NCBI GenBank assembly: GCA_947450325.1
Contig: CANFUT010000018.1
Coordinates: 1 to 64,000 of the forward strand
Length of the DNA stretch: 64,000 bases
Direction: 5' to 3'
Source of the DNA: Flavobacteriia bacterium
GTDB taxonomy: Bacteria; Bacteroidota; Bacteroidia; Flavobacteriales_D; Crocinitomicaceae
Positions within the stretch are counted from its first letter, which is position 1. Every line of letters begins with the position of its first letter. The position numbers and the translations under genes are program-made. Positions 20,703 to 50,770 of this stretch are shown here, piece after piece. The notes beneath the pieces were generated by a model. It saw nothing but the letters and a program-made list of their open reading frames with translations. It had not been told where the DNA came from and made no database searches.

Positions 20703-20716
20703 AGTATAAGACATTA

Positions 20717-20744
20717 GACAAAAGACCGACGACCAAAGACTTTT
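20717..20744. repeat. Heptad array GACNNNN x4
   Basis: GAC recurs at 20717, 20724, 20731 and 20738, exactly every 7 bp, preceded by TTA and followed by a T run. The same design occurs at 32745. The array lies 15 bp upstream of the EamA -7 box. Confidence 0.55.
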
Positions 20745-32690: not shown

Positions 32691-32744
32691 ATAATTCTTG
32701 CAACTATAAGAAAATCTTTCTTTTTTTAAAGACATGAGATGTTA

Positions 32745-32772
32745 GACGAAAGACTGAAGACTGAAGACTTTT
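32745..32772. repeat. Heptad array GACNNNN x4
   Basis: GAC recurs at 32745, 32752, 32759 and 32766, exactly every 7 bp, again preceded by TTA and followed by TTTT as at 20717. It lies 55 bp upstream of the queD -7 box. Confidence 0.55.
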
Positions 32773-41519: not shown

Positions 41520-42626
41520 ATGATTTTGAAAAACACAATAAAATCAATATTTCTGTCAATTTTGACAATCTGTTCAATCAATTCTGCTTTTGCGACAGAA
41601 CACAAGGAAAAAAAGGAATTCAACGTGAATGAAATGATCATGCATCACATCAAAGATGCACATGAATGGCATTTGTGGGGATCTGAACATGGTGGAACTT
41701 CTATTTTTCTTCCTATTATCTTAATTGATGGCGGTGTACATACGTTTTCTTCTTCTAATTTCTATCATGGAGAAATGAAAACAGCAATCGATCATGCAAC
41801 GAAAGCTGAAGTAGAATATCTTCAAGGAGTTGGTCCAGCTGCAAATTACGCTTTATACCACGAAAAAATATACAAACTAAACGACGGTGCACTTTCATTT
41901 GAAGATGGACATGTTCATGGAAATGTAAAGCCTTTCGATTTATCTATTACCAAAAATGTAATGTCTTTATTCTTTGGTGCAACAATATTATTATTAATTA
42001 TGGGTTCTGTTGCTCGTTTTTACAAGAAAAATGGCGCTGTAGCTCCAAAGGGATTGGCTAAATTTTTAGAGCCTATCATTATTTTGGTGAGAGACGATAT
42101 TGCGAAAGAAAATATTGGACATTTGAAATACAAAAAATACGTTCCTTATTTATTGACTATTTTCTTCTTTATCTTTTTCAACAATTTATTGGGTATGATT
42201 CCGATTTTACCTGGAGGTGCGAACTTGACAGGTAACTTAACAATTACGATGTTTTTAGCAGTTTGTACGTTGGTAGTTACCGTATTCTCAGGAAACAAGA
42301 ACTATTGGGGACACATTTTCTGGATGCCAGGCGTTCCAGTTCCAATGAAATTCTTCATGATGCCAATTGAGATTATCGGGATATTCACAAAGCCATTTGC
42401 ATTGATGATTCGTTTGTTTGCGAATATGACAGCAGGACACATTATTGTATTGGCATTGATTTCGATCATATTCATTAATCAAAGTATTGCTTGGGGAGCA
42501 CTTTCAGTTCCTATGGCTTTATTCATATCAGTATTGGAATTGCTTGTAGCATTTTTACAAGCGTTCTTATTTGCCATGTTATCGGCATTATTTATCGGAG
42601 CAGCAGTTGAAGAGGCTCACCATTAA
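41520..42626 (+). CDS. atpB: ATP synthase F0 subunit a
   Basis: A 368-residue proton-channel subunit of F0. It begins with a signal-like helix (residues 1-26, ending NSAFA) and a His-rich extracytoplasmic stretch, an N-terminal extension longer than the 270-residue E. coli subunit, seen widely in Bacteroidota. The essential arginine lies in MIRLFANMTAGHIIVLAL; the C-terminal helix LELLVAFLQAFLFAMLSALF is typical. First gene of the operon. Confidence 0.95.
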   Translation: MILKNTIKSIFLSILTICSINSAFATEHKEKKEFNVNEMIMHHIKDAHEWHLWGSEHGGTSIFLPIILIDGGVHTFSSSNFYHGEMKTAIDHATKAEVEYLQGVGPAANYALYHEKIYKLNDGALSFEDGHVHGNVKPFDLSITKNVMSLFFGATILLLIMGSVARFYKKNGAVAPKGLAKFLEPIIILVRDDIAKENIGHLKYKKYVPYLLTIFFFIFFNNLLGMIPILPGGANLTGNLTITMFLAVCTLVVTVFSGNKNYWGHIFWMPGVPVPMKFFMMPIEIIGIFTKPFALMIRLFANMTAGHIIVLALISIIFINQSIAWGALSVPMALFISVLELLVAFLQAFLFAMLSALFIGAAVEEAHH

Positions 42627-42641
42627 TTAGTAACTTTTTAA

Positions 42642-42866
<225 letters not shown>

Positions 42867-42874
42867 TTTATTTT

Positions 42875-42903
42875 CAGTATCCTAACGGTTGGTTGGGATA
42901 CTG
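42875..42903 (+). promoter_or_regulatory. Intercistronic hairpin between atpE and atpF
   Basis: CAGTATCC (42875-42882) pairs with GGATACTG (42896-42903) around a 13-nt loop. The T tail after it is weak (TTAATTTTTATT), so it is more likely an mRNA-stabilising or partial-stop element than a full terminator, in keeping with the high need for subunit c. Confidence 0.5.
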
Positions 42904-42946
42904 TTAATTTTTATTATCAAGAGAAACATATTAAAAATAAATAAAA

Positions 42947-43441
42947 ATGGATTTAATATTACCTGATTTTGGTTTGCTAATTTGGACATCAATTGTCTTC
43001 GGTTTATTATTGATCGTTCTTGTAAAGTTTATTTGGAAGCCAATTTTAAGTGCTGTAAATACACGTGAGCAAAACATCGCTGAATCTTTAGAATTGGCTG
43101 TTAAAACAAAAGCTGAAATGGTTGCAATGCAAGCTCAAAACGAAAACATTTTGAAGGAAGCACGCGCTGAAAGAGATGCAATCGTGAAAGATGCTCGCGA
43201 AACAGCGAACAAAATGATTGAGGATGCAAAATCAAATTCAAAAACTGAAGCTGAAAAAATTATTGTAGCTGCTCAACAAGCAATTAGAACGGAAAAAGCA
43301 GCAGCAATGGCAGATATCAAATCTCAAATTGCAAGCTTATCAATTGATATTGCTGAGAAAATTGTAAAATCAGAATTAGCTTCTGACGATAAGCAAAAAG
43401 CATTGGCTTCAAAATTAGCTGAAGATATTAACTTGAACTAA
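42947..43441 (+). CDS. atpF: ATP synthase F0 subunit b
   Basis: A 164-residue stator subunit: one N-terminal helix (FGLLIWTSIVFGLLLIVLVKF) followed by a long charged right-handed coiled coil (about 35-150). Only one b gene is in the window, so the stator is probably a homodimer. It ends one base before atpH. Confidence 0.94.
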   Translation: MDLILPDFGLLIWTSIVFGLLLIVLVKFIWKPILSAVNTREQNIAESLELAVKTKAEMVAMQAQNENILKEARAERDAIVKDARETANKMIEDAKSNSKTEAEKIIVAAQQAIRTEKAAAMADIKSQIASLSIDIAEKIVKSELASDDKQKALASKLAEDINLN

Positions 43442-43442
43442 G

Positions 43443-43976
43443 ATGAAAAGTACAAAAGCAGCATCAAGATACGCAAAAGCTTTGCTTGAATTGTCTATTG
43501 AAAAAAATAGAATGGATCAAGTGACTTCTGACATTCAAACTTTGCGTCAAGCAAATAATGAAACAAAAGAATTTCAATTGTTTTTGGAAAGTCCAGTTGT
43601 TAATGCTGAAAAGAAAAATAGTATTTTCAAGGCATTGTTTCCTCAATTTGATGAGATTACGATGTTATTCATTCAACTAATCACCAAGAATGGTAGAGAA
43701 TCTATTTTGCCAGAAATTGCAGAGTCTTTTGAAGCGCAATTGAAAGCTCACAAAGGTATTTTACCAATTACTTTAATTTCTGCACAGCCTCTAGATGCAA
43801 CTACTAAAGCTACAATTATAGCAAAAGTACAAGCAACTGTTGCAGGAAAACTGGAAGTTGAAGAGCAAATTGATACAACATTAATAGGAGGATTTGTGGT
43901 GAAAATGGGCGATAATAGAATCGACGCTTCAGTAGCAAATCAATTAAAGAATTTAAAACAACGTTTAACACGCTAG
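43443..43976 (+). CDS. atpH: ATP synthase F1 subunit delta
   Basis: A 177-residue OSCP/delta subunit linking stator to F1. The N-terminal helix bundle starts [16 protein letters not shown], and the conserved C-terminal [22 protein letters not shown] is present. Gap to atpF is 1 bp. Confidence 0.94.
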
Positions 43977-44011
43977 TTCCGAATAATCGGGATGACGTAA
44001 AGCAACAGCAT

Positions 44012-45586
44012 ATGGCAGATGTAAAACCAGCAGAAGTTTCTGCAATTTTAAGAGAGCAGCTTTCAGGTTTCAGAACAGAAGCTGAACTTCAGGAAGTAGG
44101 TACTGTACTTCAAATTGGAGATGGTATCGCACGTATTTATGGACTCAATGGAGTTCAATACGGAGAATTAATTGAATTCGACGGAGGATTACAAGGAATT
44201 GCATTGAACTTGGAAGAGGACAATGTTGGTGCCGTGTTATTAGGTCGTTCTTCTCAAGTAAAAGAAGGAGATACAGCAAAACGTTTAGGAAGAATCGCAT
44301 CAGTGAGAGTTGGTGAAGGTTTGGTTGGACGTGTTATCGATACATTAGGAAATCCAATCGATGGTAAAGGAGAAATTACAGGTGAATTGTTTGAAATGCC
44401 AATCGAGCGTAAAGCTCCAGGGGTAATTTTCCGTCAACCGGTAACTGAACCTTTGCAAACTGGTATCAAAGCAATTGATGCAATGATTCCAATTGGACGT
44501 GGACAACGTGAGTTAATCATCGGTGACCGTCAAACTGGTAAAACAACAGTTGCAATTGATGCAATCATCAACCAAAAAGAATTTTTTGACAGAGGTGAAC
44601 CTGTTTTCTGTATTTATGTAGCTATTGGACAAAAAGGTTCAACAGTTGCAGGAATCGTTAAGAAATTAGAAGATGCAGGCGCAATGCAATATACAGTTAT
44701 TGTAGCAGCAAATGCTTCTGATCCAGCACCAATGCAGTTTTACGCACCAATGACAGGAGCTGCTGTAGGTGAGTTTTTCCGTGACTCTGGACGTCCAGCA
44801 TTGATTGTTTTTGATGATTTGTCAAAACAAGCAGTTGCTTACCGTGAAGTTTCATTGTTACTTCGTCGTCCTCCAGGTCGTGAGGCTTACCCAGGTGACG
44901 TTTTCTACCTTCACTCAAGATTATTGGAAAGAGCGGCAAAAATCATTGCTGATGATACAATTGCATCACAAATGAACGATTTACCTCCTTCAATCAAGCA
45001 TTTGGTAAAAGGTGGTGGTTCATTGACTGCATTACCAATTATTGAAACACAAGCGGGTGACGTTTCTGCATATATTCCAACCAACGTAATTTCGATTACT
45101 GATGGCCAGATTTTCTTGGAAAATGATTTGTTTAACGCAGGTATTCGTCCAGCAATTAACGTAGGTATTTCTGTATCTCGTGTTGGAGGAAATGCACAAA
45201 TCAAATCAATGAAGAAAGTTGCAGGAACTTTGAAATTAGACCAAGCGCAATACCGAGAGCTTGAAGCTTTCGCGAAATTCGGTTCTGATTTAGACGCTGC
45301 TACAAAATCAGTATTGGACAAAGGAGCTAGAAACGTTGAGATTTTGAAACAAGCTGAAGGTGATCCATACCCAGTTGAAAAACAAATTGCGATCATTTTT
45401 GTCGGAACAAAAGGTTTGATGCAAAGAGTTCCTGTGAACAAAATCAAAGCATTCGAAACTGAGTTCTTGAATTACCTTGAAGCAAAACATGCTGACGTAT
45501 TATTGGCTTTGAAAGCTGGAAAATACACGGACGAAGCAACAGATGTTTTGACTAAAGTAGCAAAAGAAATCGCTGATAAATATTAG
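44012..45586 (+). CDS. atpA: ATP synthase F1 subunit alpha
   Basis: A 524-residue noncatalytic nucleotide-binding subunit. Walker A GDRQTGKT near residue 170, the [17 protein letters not shown] Walker B segment and the [15 protein letters not shown] signature are intact. The four-helix-bundle cassette follows immediately after the stop, which separates it from atpG by 426 bp instead of the usual few. Confidence 0.97.
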
Positions 45587-45588
45587 TA

Positions 45589-45621
45589 AATTAAGAATGT
45601 AGAATTTAGAATGTAGAATTG
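45589..45621 (+). repeat. Left heptad array of the four-helix cassette
   Basis: GAATNTA heptads start at 45595, 45602, 45609 and 45616. The 17-bp AATTAAGAATGTAGAAT (45589-45605) is repeated inverted at 45981-45997 with one mismatch. Confidence 0.6.
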
Positions 45622-45974
45622 AAAACATTGGAGATAGTCCAAACATAATTGTTGACAAATCCTTTGAGTTTTCTAAGCTAATAATTAGATTCTGTTTAAA
45701 TTTAAAAGAACAAAAACATTTTGAAATAAGCAGTCAGTTGATAAGGTCAGGGACTAGCATAGGTGCAAATATCAGAGAATCACAAAGAGCTGAAAGTTCA
45801 GCTGATTTTCGACATAAATTAAGAATTGCACTAAAGGAAGCTGACGAAACCAAATATTGGTTATTATTAATAGATTCAGAAATTCAAACTGTTGAGAAAA
45901 AACTTTTTGAAATGAATGAAGAATTAATTAAACTTCTTGTAGCTATTATCATTTCAAGCGCAAGAAATAAGTAA
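45618..45974 (+). CDS. Four-helix-bundle protein (S23/IVS, Avd-like), start uncertain
   Basis: A frame open from 45603 to 45974 encoding the S23/IVS four-helix-bundle fold: KSFEFSKLIIRFCLNLK (helix 1), SSQLIRSGTSIGANIRESQR (the family hallmark), ADFRHKLRIALKEADETKYW (helix 3) and a last helix. Relatives are encoded in 23S rRNA intervening sequences and as the Avd protein of DGRs. There is no ATG before helix 1; ATT at 45618 or 45627 are the only candidates, and a TTG at 45738 would lose helix 1. So it is either started at a rare codon or decaying. It sits inside the atp operon, between inverted heptad arrays, which suggests a mobile cassette. Confidence 0.7.
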   Translation: MENIGDSPNIIVDKSFEFSKLIIRFCLNLKEQKHFEISSQLIRSGTSIGANIRESQRAESSADFRHKLRIALKEADETKYWLLLIDSEIQTVEKKLFEMNEELIKLLVAIIISSARNK

Positions 45975-46002
45975 TTCTTCATTCTAGATTCTTAATTCGA
46001 AA
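45973..46002 (-). repeat. Right heptad array of the four-helix cassette
   Basis: Read on the minus strand, GAAT recurs every 7 bp four times (GAATTAA, GAATCTA, GAATGAA, GAATTA), the mirror image of the left array. It ends 10 bp before the atpG start. Confidence 0.6.
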
Positions 46003-46012
46003 TTAAATAAAG

Positions 46013-46885
46013 ATGGCAAATTTAAAAGAAATCAGAAACAGAATCACCTCGGTAGGTTCAACAATGCAGATCACTTCTGCCATGAAAATGGTATCGGCTG
46101 CGAAGTTGAAACGTGCTCAGGATGCAATCACTCAAATGCGCCCATATTCTGAAAAACTTCAGGAGATATTGAGCAATTTAAGTGCTACATTAGATTTATC
46201 TGAAAATGCTTTTTCTGATCAAAGAGAAGTAAAAAACGTTTTGATTTTAGCTGTTTCTTCAAACAGAGGTTTGTGTGGTGGATTCAACAACAACGTTATC
46301 AAAAGAGTTAATGTTTTAATGAATGAAGAATACAAAGGAAAAAATGTTCAAGTTCTTTGTTTAGGTAAAAAAGTTACTGACGCTTTTAGAAGAAGTTCAT
46401 TAAGAGCTGACAACAAAGCTTATGGAACTGAAGACATCTTTGCAGATTTGAAATTTGACAATGCAGCTGAAATCGCTGAAAATGTAATGAAAGCATATTT
46501 ATCGAAACAATTTGATGAAGTAGTGATTGTTTACAATTCATTTGTGAATGCTGCTAATCAAGTAGTAAAAACAGAACAATTCTTACCAATTATTCCTACA
46601 GTTTCTGAAGGAACAAACGGTGCAGGTGATTATATTTTCGAACCATCGAAAGAAGAAATCGTTGAAGAATTGATTCCTAAATCTTTGAAAATTCAGTTTT
46701 ACAAATCCTTGTTAGATTCTAACGCTTCCGAACACGGAGCTCGTATGACAGCCATGCACAAAGCAACTGACAACGCAAAAGATTTGCAAAAAAGCTTGAA
46801 ATTAAGTTATAATAAAGCGCGTCAAGCAGCTATTACAAACGAAATTTTAGAAATCGTTGGTGGAGCTGAGGCATTGAATAGCTAA
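46013..46885 (+). CDS. atpG: ATP synthase F1 subunit gamma
   Basis: A 290-residue rotor subunit. The N-terminal helix ANLKEIRNRITSVGSTMQIT and the C-terminal helix LSYNKARQAAITNEILEIVGG are conserved. It is the last atp gene here; atpD and atpC are absent, as usual for Bacteroidota, where they form a separate operon. A bidirectional terminator follows. Confidence 0.95.
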   Translation: MANLKEIRNRITSVGSTMQITSAMKMVSAAKLKRAQDAITQMRPYSEKLQEILSNLSATLDLSENAFSDQREVKNVLILAVSSNRGLCGGFNNNVIKRVNVLMNEEYKGKNVQVLCLGKKVTDAFRRSSLRADNKAYGTEDIFADLKFDNAAEIAENVMKAYLSKQFDEVVIVYNSFVNAANQVVKTEQFLPIIPTVSEGTNGAGDYIFEPSKEEIVEELIPKSLKIQFYKSLLDSNASEHGARMTAMHKATDNAKDLQKSLKLSYNKARQAAITNEILEIVGGAEALNS

Positions 46886-46903
46886 GAAAACATAAAATTT
46901 TAT

Positions 46904-46938
46904 AAAAAATCCCGTTTCGATTGAAGCGGGATTTTTTT
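46904..46938. terminator. Bidirectional terminator between atpG and queG
   Basis: AAAAAATCCCG pairs with CGGGATTTTTTT, and TTTC/GAAG-like bases extend the stem to a 4-nt loop. Runs of A and T on both sides serve both convergent operons. Confidence 0.85.
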
Positions 46939-47860
46939 ATTGAACAAAATTGATATTCCTCTTTAATCCTTCAAACTTAGTTCTTTTCACTGCACTCTTC
47001 GAAAAAACATCTTTGAAAATTTCCTCAGAAATATCAAACCATTCTGATTTTGAAAAATTTAAAAGCTTCTCATTTGCTTGAAAAGCTGGCTCAGAATGAG
47101 CTAAAGAAAAACGATTCCAGGGGCAAACATCTTGGCATACATCACAACCAAAAATCCAGTTATTCAATTTACCCTTAAATTCATTTGGAATAGCTTCTTT
47201 TAACTCAATTGTCAAATACGATATACATTTTGAGCCGTCAACAACATAAGCTTGATTGAGTGCATCGGTTGGGCAAGCATCCATGCATTTGGTACATGTG
47301 CCACAATAATCTTTTATTGGACCATCTGGTTCTAACTCTAAATCAATAATTAATTCAGCAATGAAAAAAAACGAACCTTTTTTGGGATGAATAATATTTC
47401 CATTCTTTCCCATCCATCCGAGACCACTTTTCCGCGCCCAAACTTTGTCCATTACAGGTGCAGAATCAACAAAAAAGCGCCCATGAACCTCTCCTATTTC
47501 ATCTTGAATTTTCTCATAAAATAACTTCAATTTATCCTTAATCACCAAATGATAATCTTGACCATAAGCGTATTTAGAAATTTTAAACGATTCTGGATTT
47601 TGCTTCTGGGTAGGAAAATAATTAAGAAGTAAGGAAACAACACTCTTTGAACCTTCCACCAATAAAGTTGGATCTAATCTTTTATCAAAATGATTTTCCA
47701 TGTATTTCATTTCACCGTGGTAACCATTATTCAACCAACTTTCAAGATTTCTAGCATCGTCTTCCAAAAACGCAGCCTTTGATACCCCGCAAAACTGAAA
47801 TCCCAAATCAGTTGCTATCCGCTTAACGATTGCCGTATTTTTCGAGACCTGATTTTTCAT
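46937..47860 (-). CDS. queG: Epoxyqueuosine reductase
   Basis: A 307-residue cobalamin and Fe-S enzyme for the last step of queuosine synthesis in tRNA. Two [4Fe-4S] motifs are present, [16 protein letters not shown] and [13 protein letters not shown], together with the N-terminal [13 protein letters not shown] region. The C-terminal HEAT repeat domain found in the longer QueG is missing, as in many short bacterial forms. It overlaps the end of ruvB by one base, so both are cotranscribed. Pathway partners queD and folE are at 32 kb. Confidence 0.93.
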
Positions 47861-48885
47861 TAAAACAAACCACCTTGGAAATAGCCTAAATCTTTGCCTA
47901 AATGTTTGTAAGCCTTTTCTGTTGCTTTTCTTCCTCGCTGCGTGCGGATTAAGAAACCTTCCTGAATTAAGAATGGCTCATAAACTTCCTCGAGCGTACC
48001 AGCATTTTCCCCAATTGCAGTTGCAATCGTAGTCAATCCAACTGGACCACCGTTAAACTTATCTATAATAGCCATCAAAACACGATTATCCATTTCGTCT
48101 AGACCATATTTATCAACATTCAAAGCTTCTAAAGCGATGTTTGTTATCTCAACATCAATTGTCCCATTTCCTTTGATTTGCGCAAAATCACGCACCCTAC
48201 GAAGCAAAGCATTCGCAATTCTAGGTGTACCTCTGCTCCTACTTGCAATTTGATAAGCAGCTTCTTCACTAATTGGAATATCAAGCAAATCAGAAGAACG
48301 CTCAACAATTGCAGTCAACGTTTTAGAATCATAATATTGCAATCTAGCATTAATACCAAATCTTGCGCGTAATGGAGAAGTCAATAATCCAGAGCGTGTT
48401 GTTGCACCAATTAACGTGAATGGATTCAAAGCTATTTGCACAGATCTAGCATTTGGACCGCTATCGATTAAAATATCAATCACGTAATCTTCCATTGCTG
48501 AATACAAATATTCTTCAATTACCGGACTTAAACGATGTATTTCATCAATAAACAATACATCACCTTGATCTAAATTCGTCAGTAATCCAGCCAAATCACC
48601 AGGCTTATCTAAAACTGGTCCGCTTGTAACTTTAAAACCAACCCCTAATTCATTGGCAATAATGTTTGCCAAAGTTGTTTTACCAAGTCCAGGGGGTCCA
48701 TGTAAAAGAACATGATCTAAAGGTTCGCCACGCTTGGTTGCGGCTTGTACAAAAATTTCTAAATTATCGACTACTTGCTCTTGTCCAGCAAAATCTGAAA
48801 GTTTTTTCGGACGCAAAACTTTATCATAATCCTTTTCTCCCTCTTCGCTTTCCTTACGGTAATCAAATGAATCTTCTTCTTCCAA
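47860..48885 (-). CDS. ruvB: Holliday junction helicase RuvB
   Basis: A 341-residue AAA+ motor of the RuvAB branch-migration complex. Walker [11 protein letters not shown] near residues 64-73, Walker B DEIHRL, sensor 1 GATTRSG and the arginine finger region [11 protein letters not shown] are present, plus the C-terminal winged helix ([17 protein letters not shown]). It overlaps queG by one base. A terminator separates it from ctaD upstream, so it has its own transcription. Confidence 0.97.
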
Positions 48886-48909
48886 AGTAAATAAATTTAT
48901 TCAAAAATA

Positions 48910-48940
48910 CAAAAGCCGCTCCAACTTGGAACGGCTTTCG
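48910..48940 (-). terminator. Rho-independent terminator of the act-cta operon
   Basis: AAAGCCG and CGGCTTT enclose a further TCCAA/TTGGA pairing; the minus strand then reads TTTTGTATTTTTG. It lies 20 bp after the ctaD stop. Confidence 0.75.
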
Positions 48941-48958
48941 CATTAAATATTTAAAAAT

Positions 48959-50770
48959 TTAATGTTCTTCTTCACCTTCAGCAAGTGGCACAATTTGAGA
49001 AATAAAATCCTCTTCTGCCCCTGGTTTAGAATAATCGTAAGGCCATCTGTGAACCACTGGCAAAGCACCAGGCCAGTTACCATGTATGTGCTCGACAGGA
49101 GTAGTCCATTCCAAAGTATTCGATCTCCATGGATTTTGAACAGCTTTAGGTCCTCTAAAAATACTATAGAAGAAGTTAAACAAGAAAACAAGTTGACCAA
49201 GAGCCGCAACAATTGCGAAAATTGTAATGATTACATTTAGATCCATCATCATGTCTGCTGCTGGTTTATCAAACTCATTGTAAACAGAATAATCATAATA
49301 TCTTCTAGGTGCACCTGCTAATCCAACAAAGTGCATTGGGAAAAATACCCCGTAAGCACCAATAATTGTAATCCAAAAGTGCACATATCCTAGGCGTGTA
49401 TTCATCATTTTACCATACATTTTGGGGAACCAATGATAAACACCTGCAAACATTCCGAAAACAGCTGACATACCCATTACCACGTGAAAGTGAGCAACAA
49501 CAAAATAAGTATCATGAATTGCAATGTCTAAGGCAGAATCTGCGAGGATAATACCTGTTACCCCACCAGTAATAAATGTAGAAACTAAACCAATTGCAAA
49601 CAACATTGCAGGAGTTAAAACCAAACTTCCTCTCCAAAGTGTTGTAATGTAGTTAAAAACCTTCACTGCAGATGGAATAGCAATCAAAAGAGTTGTGAAT
49701 ACAAATACACTTCCTAAGAAAGGATTCATTCCTGTTACAAACATATGGTGACCCCATACGATAAATGACAAGAAACCGATTGCTAAAATTGAACCGATCA
49801 TCGCACGGTAACCAAAAATTGGTTTACGTGAATTAGTTGATATAATTTCAGAGGATAAACCCAAAGCAGGTAACAATACAATGTATACCTCAGGGTGACC
49901 TAAGAACCAGAAAAGGTGTTGATACAACAATGGAGATCCACCGTGATTTTCAAGCATTTCCCCATTTACAATAATATCAGATAAGTAGAAACTTGTTCCA
50001 GCTAGTCTGTCCATCATCAATAACAAAGCGGCTGACAATAATACAGGGAAAGAAAGAACTCCCAAAACTGCTGTTACAAAAAACGCCCAAATTGTTAATG
50101 GCATTCTTGTCATTGTCATTCCTTTTGTTCTAAGGTTTAAAACTGTAACGATATAATTCAAAGATCCAATTAAAGAAGACGCAATGAATATTGTCATAGA
50201 AAATAACCACAATGTCATACCTAACCCTGAACCTTCAATCGCTTGAGGAAGTGCAGAAAGAGGAGGATAAATTGTCCAACCAGCCATTGCTGGTCCTGTT
50301 TCAATAAACAGTGAGGAAAGCATGATTACTGATGACAAAAAGAACATCCAATAAGAAAGCATATTCAAGAAACCCGAAGCCATATCACGAGCTCCAAGTT
50401 GCAATGGAATAAGCATATTAGAAAAAGTTCCTGATAATCCTCCTGTTAATAAGAAGAAAACCATTATAGTTCCATGAATTGTAACTAAACCAAGGTACAT
50501 GTTTTCTTTCAAAACACCTCCTGGAGCCCATGTTTCACCTAAAAACATAGATAAAAAATCCGAACTTTCACCTGGCCATGCCAATTGAATTCTAAACAAG
50601 ATAGATAGTAACATTGCTACTACACCCATAAATACAGCAGTCATTAAGAACTGCTTACCAATCATTTTATGGTCTTGACTAAAAATGTACTTCGAGACGA
50701 AACCTTCTTCATGGTGATCGTGAGAATGTGCATCGTGATGTCCGTGTGCTTCGTGAGCTAAAGCTGCCAT
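48959..50770 (-). CDS. ctaD: Cytochrome c oxidase subunit I (aa3, A-type)
   Basis: A 603-residue catalytic subunit that reduces O2 and pumps protons. It has about 12 to 13 helices. The HPEVY motif (WFLGHPEVYIVLLPALG) gives the Cu-B His-Tyr pair and the A-type glutamate; HDTYFVVAHFHVVMG provides the heme histidines. The N-terminus is His-rich (HEAHGHHDAHSHDHHEEG). The C-terminus carries no fused subunit III, and none follows in the window. Last gene of the actA-F-ctaC-ctaD operon. Confidence 0.96.
   Translation of the reverse strand: MAALAHEAHGHHDAHSHDHHEEGFVSKYIFSQDHKMIGKQFLMTAVFMGVVAMLLSILFRIQLAWPGESSDFLSMFLGETWAPGGVLKENMYLGLVTIHGTIMVFFLLTGGLSGTFSNMLIPLQLGARDMASGFLNMLSYWMFFLSSVIMLSSLFIETGPAMAGWTIYPPLSALPQAIEGSGLGMTLWLFSMTIFIASSLIGSLNYIVTVLNLRTKGMTMTRMPLTIWAFFVTAVLGVLSFPVLLSAALLLMMDRLAGTSFYLSDIIVNGEMLENHGGSPLLYQHLFWFLGHPEVYIVLLPALGLSSEIISTNSRKPIFGYRAMIGSILAIGFLSFIVWGHHMFVTGMNPFLGSVFVFTTLLIAIPSAVKVFNYITTLWRGSLVLTPAMLFAIGLVSTFITGGVTGIILADSALDIAIHDTYFVVAHFHVVMGMSAVFGMFAGVYHWFPKMYGKMMNTRLGYVHFWITIIGAYGVFFPMHFVGLAGAPRRYYDYSVYNEFDKPAADMMMDLNVIITIFAIVAALGQLVFLFNFFYSIFRGPKAVQNPWRSNTLEWTTPVEHIHGNWPGALPVVHRWPYDYSKPGAEEDFISQIVPLAEGEEEH

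Follow-up and report, generated by a model that had tools for sequence, protein, structure and literature searches.

We analyzed a 64,000-nucleotide (nt) stretch of the genome of a Flavobacteriia bacterium of the family Crocinitomicaceae (contig CANFUT010000018.1, positions 1 to 64,000; hereafter the window), in which a gene of the S23 family lies between the ATP synthase genes atpA and atpG. Our reading, to which we give about an even chance of being correct, is that this locus is a two-part module: a gene for a ~120-amino acid (aa) S23 four-helix bundle, enclosed by two inverted cognate arrays of 7-nt repeats. The matched inverted flanks found around many S23 genes, together with the covariation of array type and S23 protein, suggest that protein and repeats work together.

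Results

An S23 gene within inverted heptad arrays in the atp operon

The atpA-atpG gap of the window is 426 nt long (45587..46012, forward strand) and the only open reading frame (ORF) inside it, with 123 open codons (45603..45974, forward strand), encodes an S23 protein. The translated ORF matched the S23 model PF05635 (8.6e-23, 81 bits for a cut-off of 33.8) and, above its curated cut-off, TIGR02436 (1e-25, 90 bits for a cut-off of 24); a solved relative is PDB entry 2rld (phmmer 1.1e-24), which contains five chains. The original prediction of an S23 frame in a gap of this size was therefore borne out, but its statement that such gaps normally measure a few bases was loose. We collected 109 atpA-atpG gaps from 108 of the 113 family genomes with AtpG (G035, G050, G085, G096 and G046 were left out): 10 contain S23 and the remaining 99 are short, spanning 11 to 143 nt.

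As also predicted, both ends of the gap carry GAATNNA heptads in opposite orientation, a left array forming the upstream arm (45589..45620, forward strand; arm pair score 18.8) and a right array inverted relative to it in the inverted-repeat comparison (45973..46004, reverse strand). The gap ends pair as inverted repeats over 38 nt at 79% and over 24 nt at 88%, and the 17-bp inverted repeat with one mismatch that had been described can be read from the sequence (45589-45605 against 45981-45997). A second inverted repeat of 17 nt (94%) joins the 3' end of the ORF (45914-45930) to 45968-45984. The S23 ORF is enclosed by terminal inverted repeats that can pair into a stem, which is the layout of an intervening sequence (IVS), and the gap RNA folds with a z of -5.65. 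The first codons of the ORF, from 45603 on, overlap the left array. The claim that no in-frame ATG is present holds for the window, where an ATT codon (45627..45629, forward strand) is the candidate non-canonical or lost start; the sister genome G003 has ATG at the same codon.

A three-unit pattern of the GAATNNA type, GAATNNAGAATNNAGAAT, has 10 matches at three places in the 3.4-Mb genome and none in reverse; besides the atp gap, it marks two hairpins that enclose no ORF and lie between convergent ORFs. Within a 464-kb sample of the same genome, drawn partly from contigs already known to carry S23, we found 14 ungapped inverted repeats of at least 22 nt. Two of these have arms with a lag-7 value of at least 0.5, and both flank S23 genes. 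A search of positions 44000-47000 against Rfam gave no gathering-level match among hits up to an E-value of 1.

Matched inverted flanks around S23 genes

The left flank of each S23 ORF was compared with the reverse complement of its right flank, a score of at least 15 being counted as a pass. Three sets were used: 80 named loci found by searching with the window protein, a sample of 50 genomes of the class searched with the Pfam model, and the genus. Together they gave 126 S23 ORFs, of which two had insufficient flank. Out of the 124 usable ORFs, 75 passed, compared with 2 of 156 control ORFs from these loci and 231 of 3997 cross-pairs of mismatched flanks. The passes were distributed as 51/83 in the named set, which is biased because one search peptide (NLECRIEN) is a translated array, 15/28 in the class set, which is free of that bias, and 9/13 in the genus. 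A first-pass comparison that located S23 by motif missed seven genus loci and is superseded by this count, based on hidden Markov models. S23 proteins, for which solved structures exist, are common in Bacteroidota: the Pfam model detects them in 41 of the 50 class genomes. In the genome of the window, the S23 loci L001 and L002 and the atp copy pass and L004 fails; L004, L051, L053 and L054 are the genus loci below the threshold. Two more periodic inverted repeats of ~400 nt near named loci likewise enclose S23 paralogues.

The best lag in the 75 passing pairs was 7 nt in 40, 8 nt in 34 and 6 nt in one. The idea that the arrays are always heptads was consequently rejected, about half being octads. 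In a period scan made without inverted repeats, period 7 did not stand out: it had 20 segments, compared with 30, 26 and 29 for periods 6, 9 and 12. Direct arrays on their own therefore escape notice at the threshold used. Among 73 short intergenic inverted repeats of the own-genome sample the best lag was 7 in 14 and 4 in 15, which indicates that short solo hairpins are not generally heptadic. Of note, in a metagenome-assembled genome (MAG) of a rumen Bacteroidaceae (L115, 1469-4897), one heptad array type occupies several consecutive gaps surrounding an S23 gene.

Array type and S23 protein vary together

Matched arms were found for 98 of 145 distinct S23s, and in these the 5-mer similarity of the arms is predicted by S23 protein identity (Mantel rho 0.49, reached in 0 of 300 permutations). 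When only pairs without common neighbour families were considered, the arms were alike in 44% of the 221 pairs with 60-70% protein identity versus 3% of the 1797 pairs below 30%. There are exceptions, certain S23 pairs more than 60% identical carrying unrelated arms. At the atp site, the arms of S23 units hold one heptad type across genera (mean cosine 0.415, 96 pairs), whereas the hairpins lacking S23 vary in type (mean cosine 0.087, 324 pairs; 0 of 2000 label shuffles). Among arrays pre-selected for at least three units, the S23 arms have 4 units in 45/98 cases and 5 in 23/98 (68/98 together).

Long residence of S23 in the atp operon

The ten best matches of the window S23 in 299 genomes of the order are all located between atpA and atpG, and the next match has an E-value of 7e-29. 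Its best named relatives also lie there, in two Crocinitomicaceae MAGs, three Kordia, Gillisia and Leeuwenhoekiella; judging by their identical gaps and AtpG, the two Crocinitomicaceae MAGs are apparently our genomes G087 and G017. Fifteen distinct atp S23s stand on one side of a branch (support 100/99) with six other S23s on the opposite side, and this atp clade spans two families. S23 identity follows AtpG identity (Spearman 0.83, duplicates included), G002 being the main exception. A grouping of G000, the genome of the window, with G003 and G002 as one S23 clade was rejected (p 0.0245); this group had been picked after seeing the identities and nothing was built on it.

The ratio of nonsynonymous to synonymous substitutions (dN/dS) in four pairs of atp S23s is 0.05, 0.03, 0.04 and 0.05, with values of 0.03, 0.05, 0.12 and 0.06 for AtpG; a stop in the S23 of the Kordia sp. 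MAG prevented the calculation for two further pairs. The arms have also changed little in some pairs, with 5 of 80 positions differing between G000 and G003 (dS 0.41) and 3 of 80, in addition to a gap of 5 nt, between G060 and G087 (dS 1.2). Signs of decay are seen in some copies: a TGA in G113, the Kordia sp. MAG stop and the ATT of the window. The atp S23 is a long-standing resident of the atpA-atpG gap under strong purifying selection, and these results do not support recent mobility of this copy.

Presence, absence and exchange at fixed sites

Other S23 sites were compared between the window's genome and the genus members G001, G003 (the sister) and G004 (the closest relative). At the C4 site, G000 and G004 have flanks with 96.4/96.7% identity, whereas their S23s are only 56% identical and their arrays are of different types (AGACNNA in G000 versus GGATTTTA-like in G004). 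Between G000 and G003 the flanks of this site are 91.5/90.3% identical, the S23s 86%, and the array type is the same. Gene and arrays have thus been exchanged together.

Three sites vary in occupancy. The L001 site contains S23 in G000 and G004 and a clean 25 nt in G003, the L045 site contains S23 in G003 only, and the L051 site is filled in G004 (G004:C37) and unfilled in G000, G003 and G001. Around positions 1430-1850 of L051, a stretch of 22-25 nt from the unfilled site is matched on either side of the insert, at a hairpin, which is possibly a target duplication and the only such case seen. Besides this site and the clean one, the third unfilled site holds a hairpin of another type. At the atp site no target duplication was seen, and the relative G004 has another hairpin there. 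Recombination of whole alleles could explain part of the site differences. We identified no mobility enzyme, transposase-like, RAYT and reverse transcriptase (RT) genes not having been sought genome-wide. In Flavobacterium columnare, a four helix bundle gene is tabulated with guanylate kinase on one side and nadD on the other for both listed strains (PMC5524665), possibly another fixed S23 site.

Arrays and hairpins without S23

Among the 99 short atp gaps, 66 have a better fold than shuffled sequences (z of -2 or lower). An inverted repeat with a score of at least 12 occurs in 34 of the 99, and in 28 of these 34 the arms are 7/8-periodic. In G004, whose AtpG is 99% identical to that of the window, the gap has an 82-nt hairpin of another type. 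The gap of G064 (L247) contains a perfect 26-nt inverted repeat (z -9.9) that is not 7/8-periodic. In G050 (G050:C42:84154-85146), AtpG is matched in two pieces ~100 nt apart within one 388-aa frame, which resembles an in-frame insertion.

The pattern of three AGACNNN units, the array type belonging to the S23 gene at C4:125442, has 123 matches in the window's genome and none in reverse. From the full list we inspected a subset of 29 distinct sites: 28 have no S23, and 12 lie between convergent ORFs compared with 31 of 238 background gaps (p 4.7e-4). The commonest number of units in these arrays is 5 (11/29). Octad hairpins TTGGATTN/TTAGATTN (L323-L329), which share their type with the S23 at G003:C9, likewise lie between convergent ORFs in 7 of the 8 cases read. 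Three GTATTNA units, the type of one S23 of G150, have 23 matches in G150 and none in nine other genomes; the reversed pattern has 5 matches in two of the nine.

Relation to known systems

The closest prior description is that of the IVS in the 23S rRNA of Coxiella burnetii, where an S23p ORF lies in the loop of a 28-bp terminal stem excised by RNase III and tandem GACAGAT heptamers stand just upstream of the ORF (PMC4990558, part of the text). In the part of that paper available, the ORF is described as decaying, the S23p of X. campestris as a homopentamer and S23 proteins as having no known function, and the arrays are not treated as a feature of the S23 family. The atp unit shares with this IVS, as far as that text describes it, a sense-strand S23-family ORF within stem-forming terminal inverted repeats and a total length of ~430 nt. 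Unlike the Coxiella IVS, it lies between the protein genes atpA and atpG rather than in 23S rRNA, has arrays at both ends that match as inverted copies, encodes an ORF under strong purifying selection and belongs to a genome in which arrays of the same type are scattered.

The types of repetitive extragenic palindromic (REP) sequences and of REP-associated tyrosine transposases (RAYTs) co-vary, and in the S23 module protein and repeat type vary together. Scattered single repeats, a mark of REP/RAYT systems, were found here too, with the 123 matches of the AGACNNN pattern and GAATNNA at two further places. In layout the REP/RAYT system is the closest, its gene being flanked by repeats that also occur singly between genes, often convergent ones, but its units, as given in the available part of the source, are GTAG-tagged palindromes and not 7/8-nt arrays (PMC3733652). 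Furthermore, no Y1/HUH tyrosine transposase (RAYT) lies inside the S23 unit, RAYT genes elsewhere in the genome not having been sought.

The Avd accessory protein of diversity-generating retroelements belongs to the same four-helix-bundle, pentamer-type family as S23 and is linked to nucleic acids. S23 is a small four-helix bundle for which we know of no recognised catalytic motif. Inspection of the ORFs of at least 50 aa in 42000-50000 revealed no RT gene, no RT model having been run on the genome, and no template or variable repeats were noticed next to the S23 gene, no search having been aimed at them. TAACTGA heptamer direct repeats are reported from Beggiatoaceae, Cyanobacteria and some Bacteroidetes (PMC4679880). 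Like the S23-linked arrays they are intergenic tandem heptamers and genome-specific, but they are direct arrays of a single heptamer, and the paper never mentions S23, four helix or intervening. Our literature searches, which left subscription journals mostly uncovered, returned no description of inverted 7/8-nt arrays around S23 genes beyond the heptamers of the Coxiella IVS (PMC4990558, part of the text).

Discussion

Several results weigh against a module of S23 and cognate arrays. At the score of 15, 49 of the 124 S23 ORFs have no matched flanks; the named set was found partly through the array-derived peptide pattern NLECRIEN, and the unit counts come from arrays pre-selected by unit number. 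All 15 atp S23s belong to a single lineage, and their common array type may therefore partly reflect descent, and arm change is larger in other pairs (21/80 between G060 and G048, 12/78 between two Kordia). The window copy has no ATG. An inverted partner (score of at least 13) is present at only 3 of the 29 AGAC sites, which indicates that most of these are single arrays. Finally, the original prediction had named heptad arrays in many gaps without a four-helix ORF as an outcome contrary to it, and such arrays are frequent (28 of 99 short atp gaps, 28 of 29 AGAC sites); an array alone is consequently no marker of an S23 element.

Could S23 and its arrays be a small transposable unit, with the heptad arrays as terminal inverted repeats and an enzyme acting in trans? 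The S23 units present or absent at the L001, L045 and L051 sites, the 22-25 nt matching both insert sides at L051 and the exchange of gene with arrays at the C4 site would agree with this. We nevertheless consider it unlikely, as the atp copy forms one clade over two families, tracks AtpG, is under strong purifying selection and shows no target duplication, several 'empty' sites hold a hairpin of another type and not a clean site, no mobility enzyme was identified (none was sought genome-wide), and homologous recombination of whole alleles between relatives would account for the exchanges too. What stands of the mobile cassette first proposed is that S23 and array ends are linked, widespread, and come and go at fixed sites; a recent jump of the atp copy is not supported.

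The layout shared with the Coxiella 23S rRNA IVS, in the part of PMC4990558 available, the stable fold of the gap and the decay signs in G113, the Kordia sp. MAG and the window are compatible with an IVS-like RNA element, in which RNase III would cut the stem of the atp transcript, with the S23 protein as an unneeded passenger. The dN/dS of 0.03-0.05 in four pairs, similar to AtpG and unlike the decaying Coxiella ORF of that text, makes this quite improbable in our view. In our judgement it is very unlikely that S23 genes simply happen to sit in ordinary hairpins, acting as terminators or as attenuators within operons, with arms renewed through slippage and template switching. Such an explanation would account for the fold of 66 of 99 short atp gaps, several of which have plain hairpins, and for the convergent-gene setting of octad hairpins and AGAC sites, but it predicts neither an array type that follows the S23 clade at unrelated loci nor matched flanks at 75 of 124 S23 ORFs against 2 of 156 controls.

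Returning to the module of S23 and cognate arrays, S23 probably binds its arrays; we infer such binding, and the RNA processing and movement discussed here, from the genomic patterns. The two arrays would pair in the atp mRNA to give a stem with the S23 ORF in its loop, and the right array has two possible partners, the left array and the 3' end of the ORF. An S23 homopentamer, as in the solved relative, would bind the arrays, perhaps with one repeat per subunit, and thereby control how its own message and the atpA/atpG junction are processed or expressed. For the window protein, a pentamer would be expected from its sequence relation to 2rld. One repeat per subunit is no more than a fair guess, made because S23 relatives are pentameric and 5 units are commonest in AGAC arrays and 4-5 in S23 arms. 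The scattered arrays without S23 may be extra binding sites or footprints of the module, comparable to REP sequences and the RAYT gene, and movement between sites would not need the S23 protein as a catalyst.

It is possible, though we find it doubtful, that all this forms a large self-specific system of Bacteroidota in which each S23 clade reads its own 7-8-nt arrays, one repeat per pentamer subunit, at its own gene and at scattered RNA control elements, with the rRNA IVS as the rRNA branch: a network resembling REP/RAYT but with a non-catalytic protein at its core. If the arrays are indeed cognate, they would be the first concrete ligand to try with S23 proteins; intergenic cassettes would be linked with rRNA intervening sequences and one class of intergenic repeats would be explained. 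Conservation in the ATP-synthase operon opens the role of S23 to an ordinary gene-removal test.

Other features of the window

The atp unit is preceded by atpA (44012..45586, forward strand) and followed by atpG (46013..46885, forward strand). Two AGACNNN heptad arrays of the C4:125442 type lie in the window without S23, one of 5 units (20709..20726, forward strand) and one of 6 units between convergent ORFs (32744..32768, forward strand). Elsewhere, inverted AGAC arrays around another ORF (L376) turned out to surround rpsO and were taken as chance.
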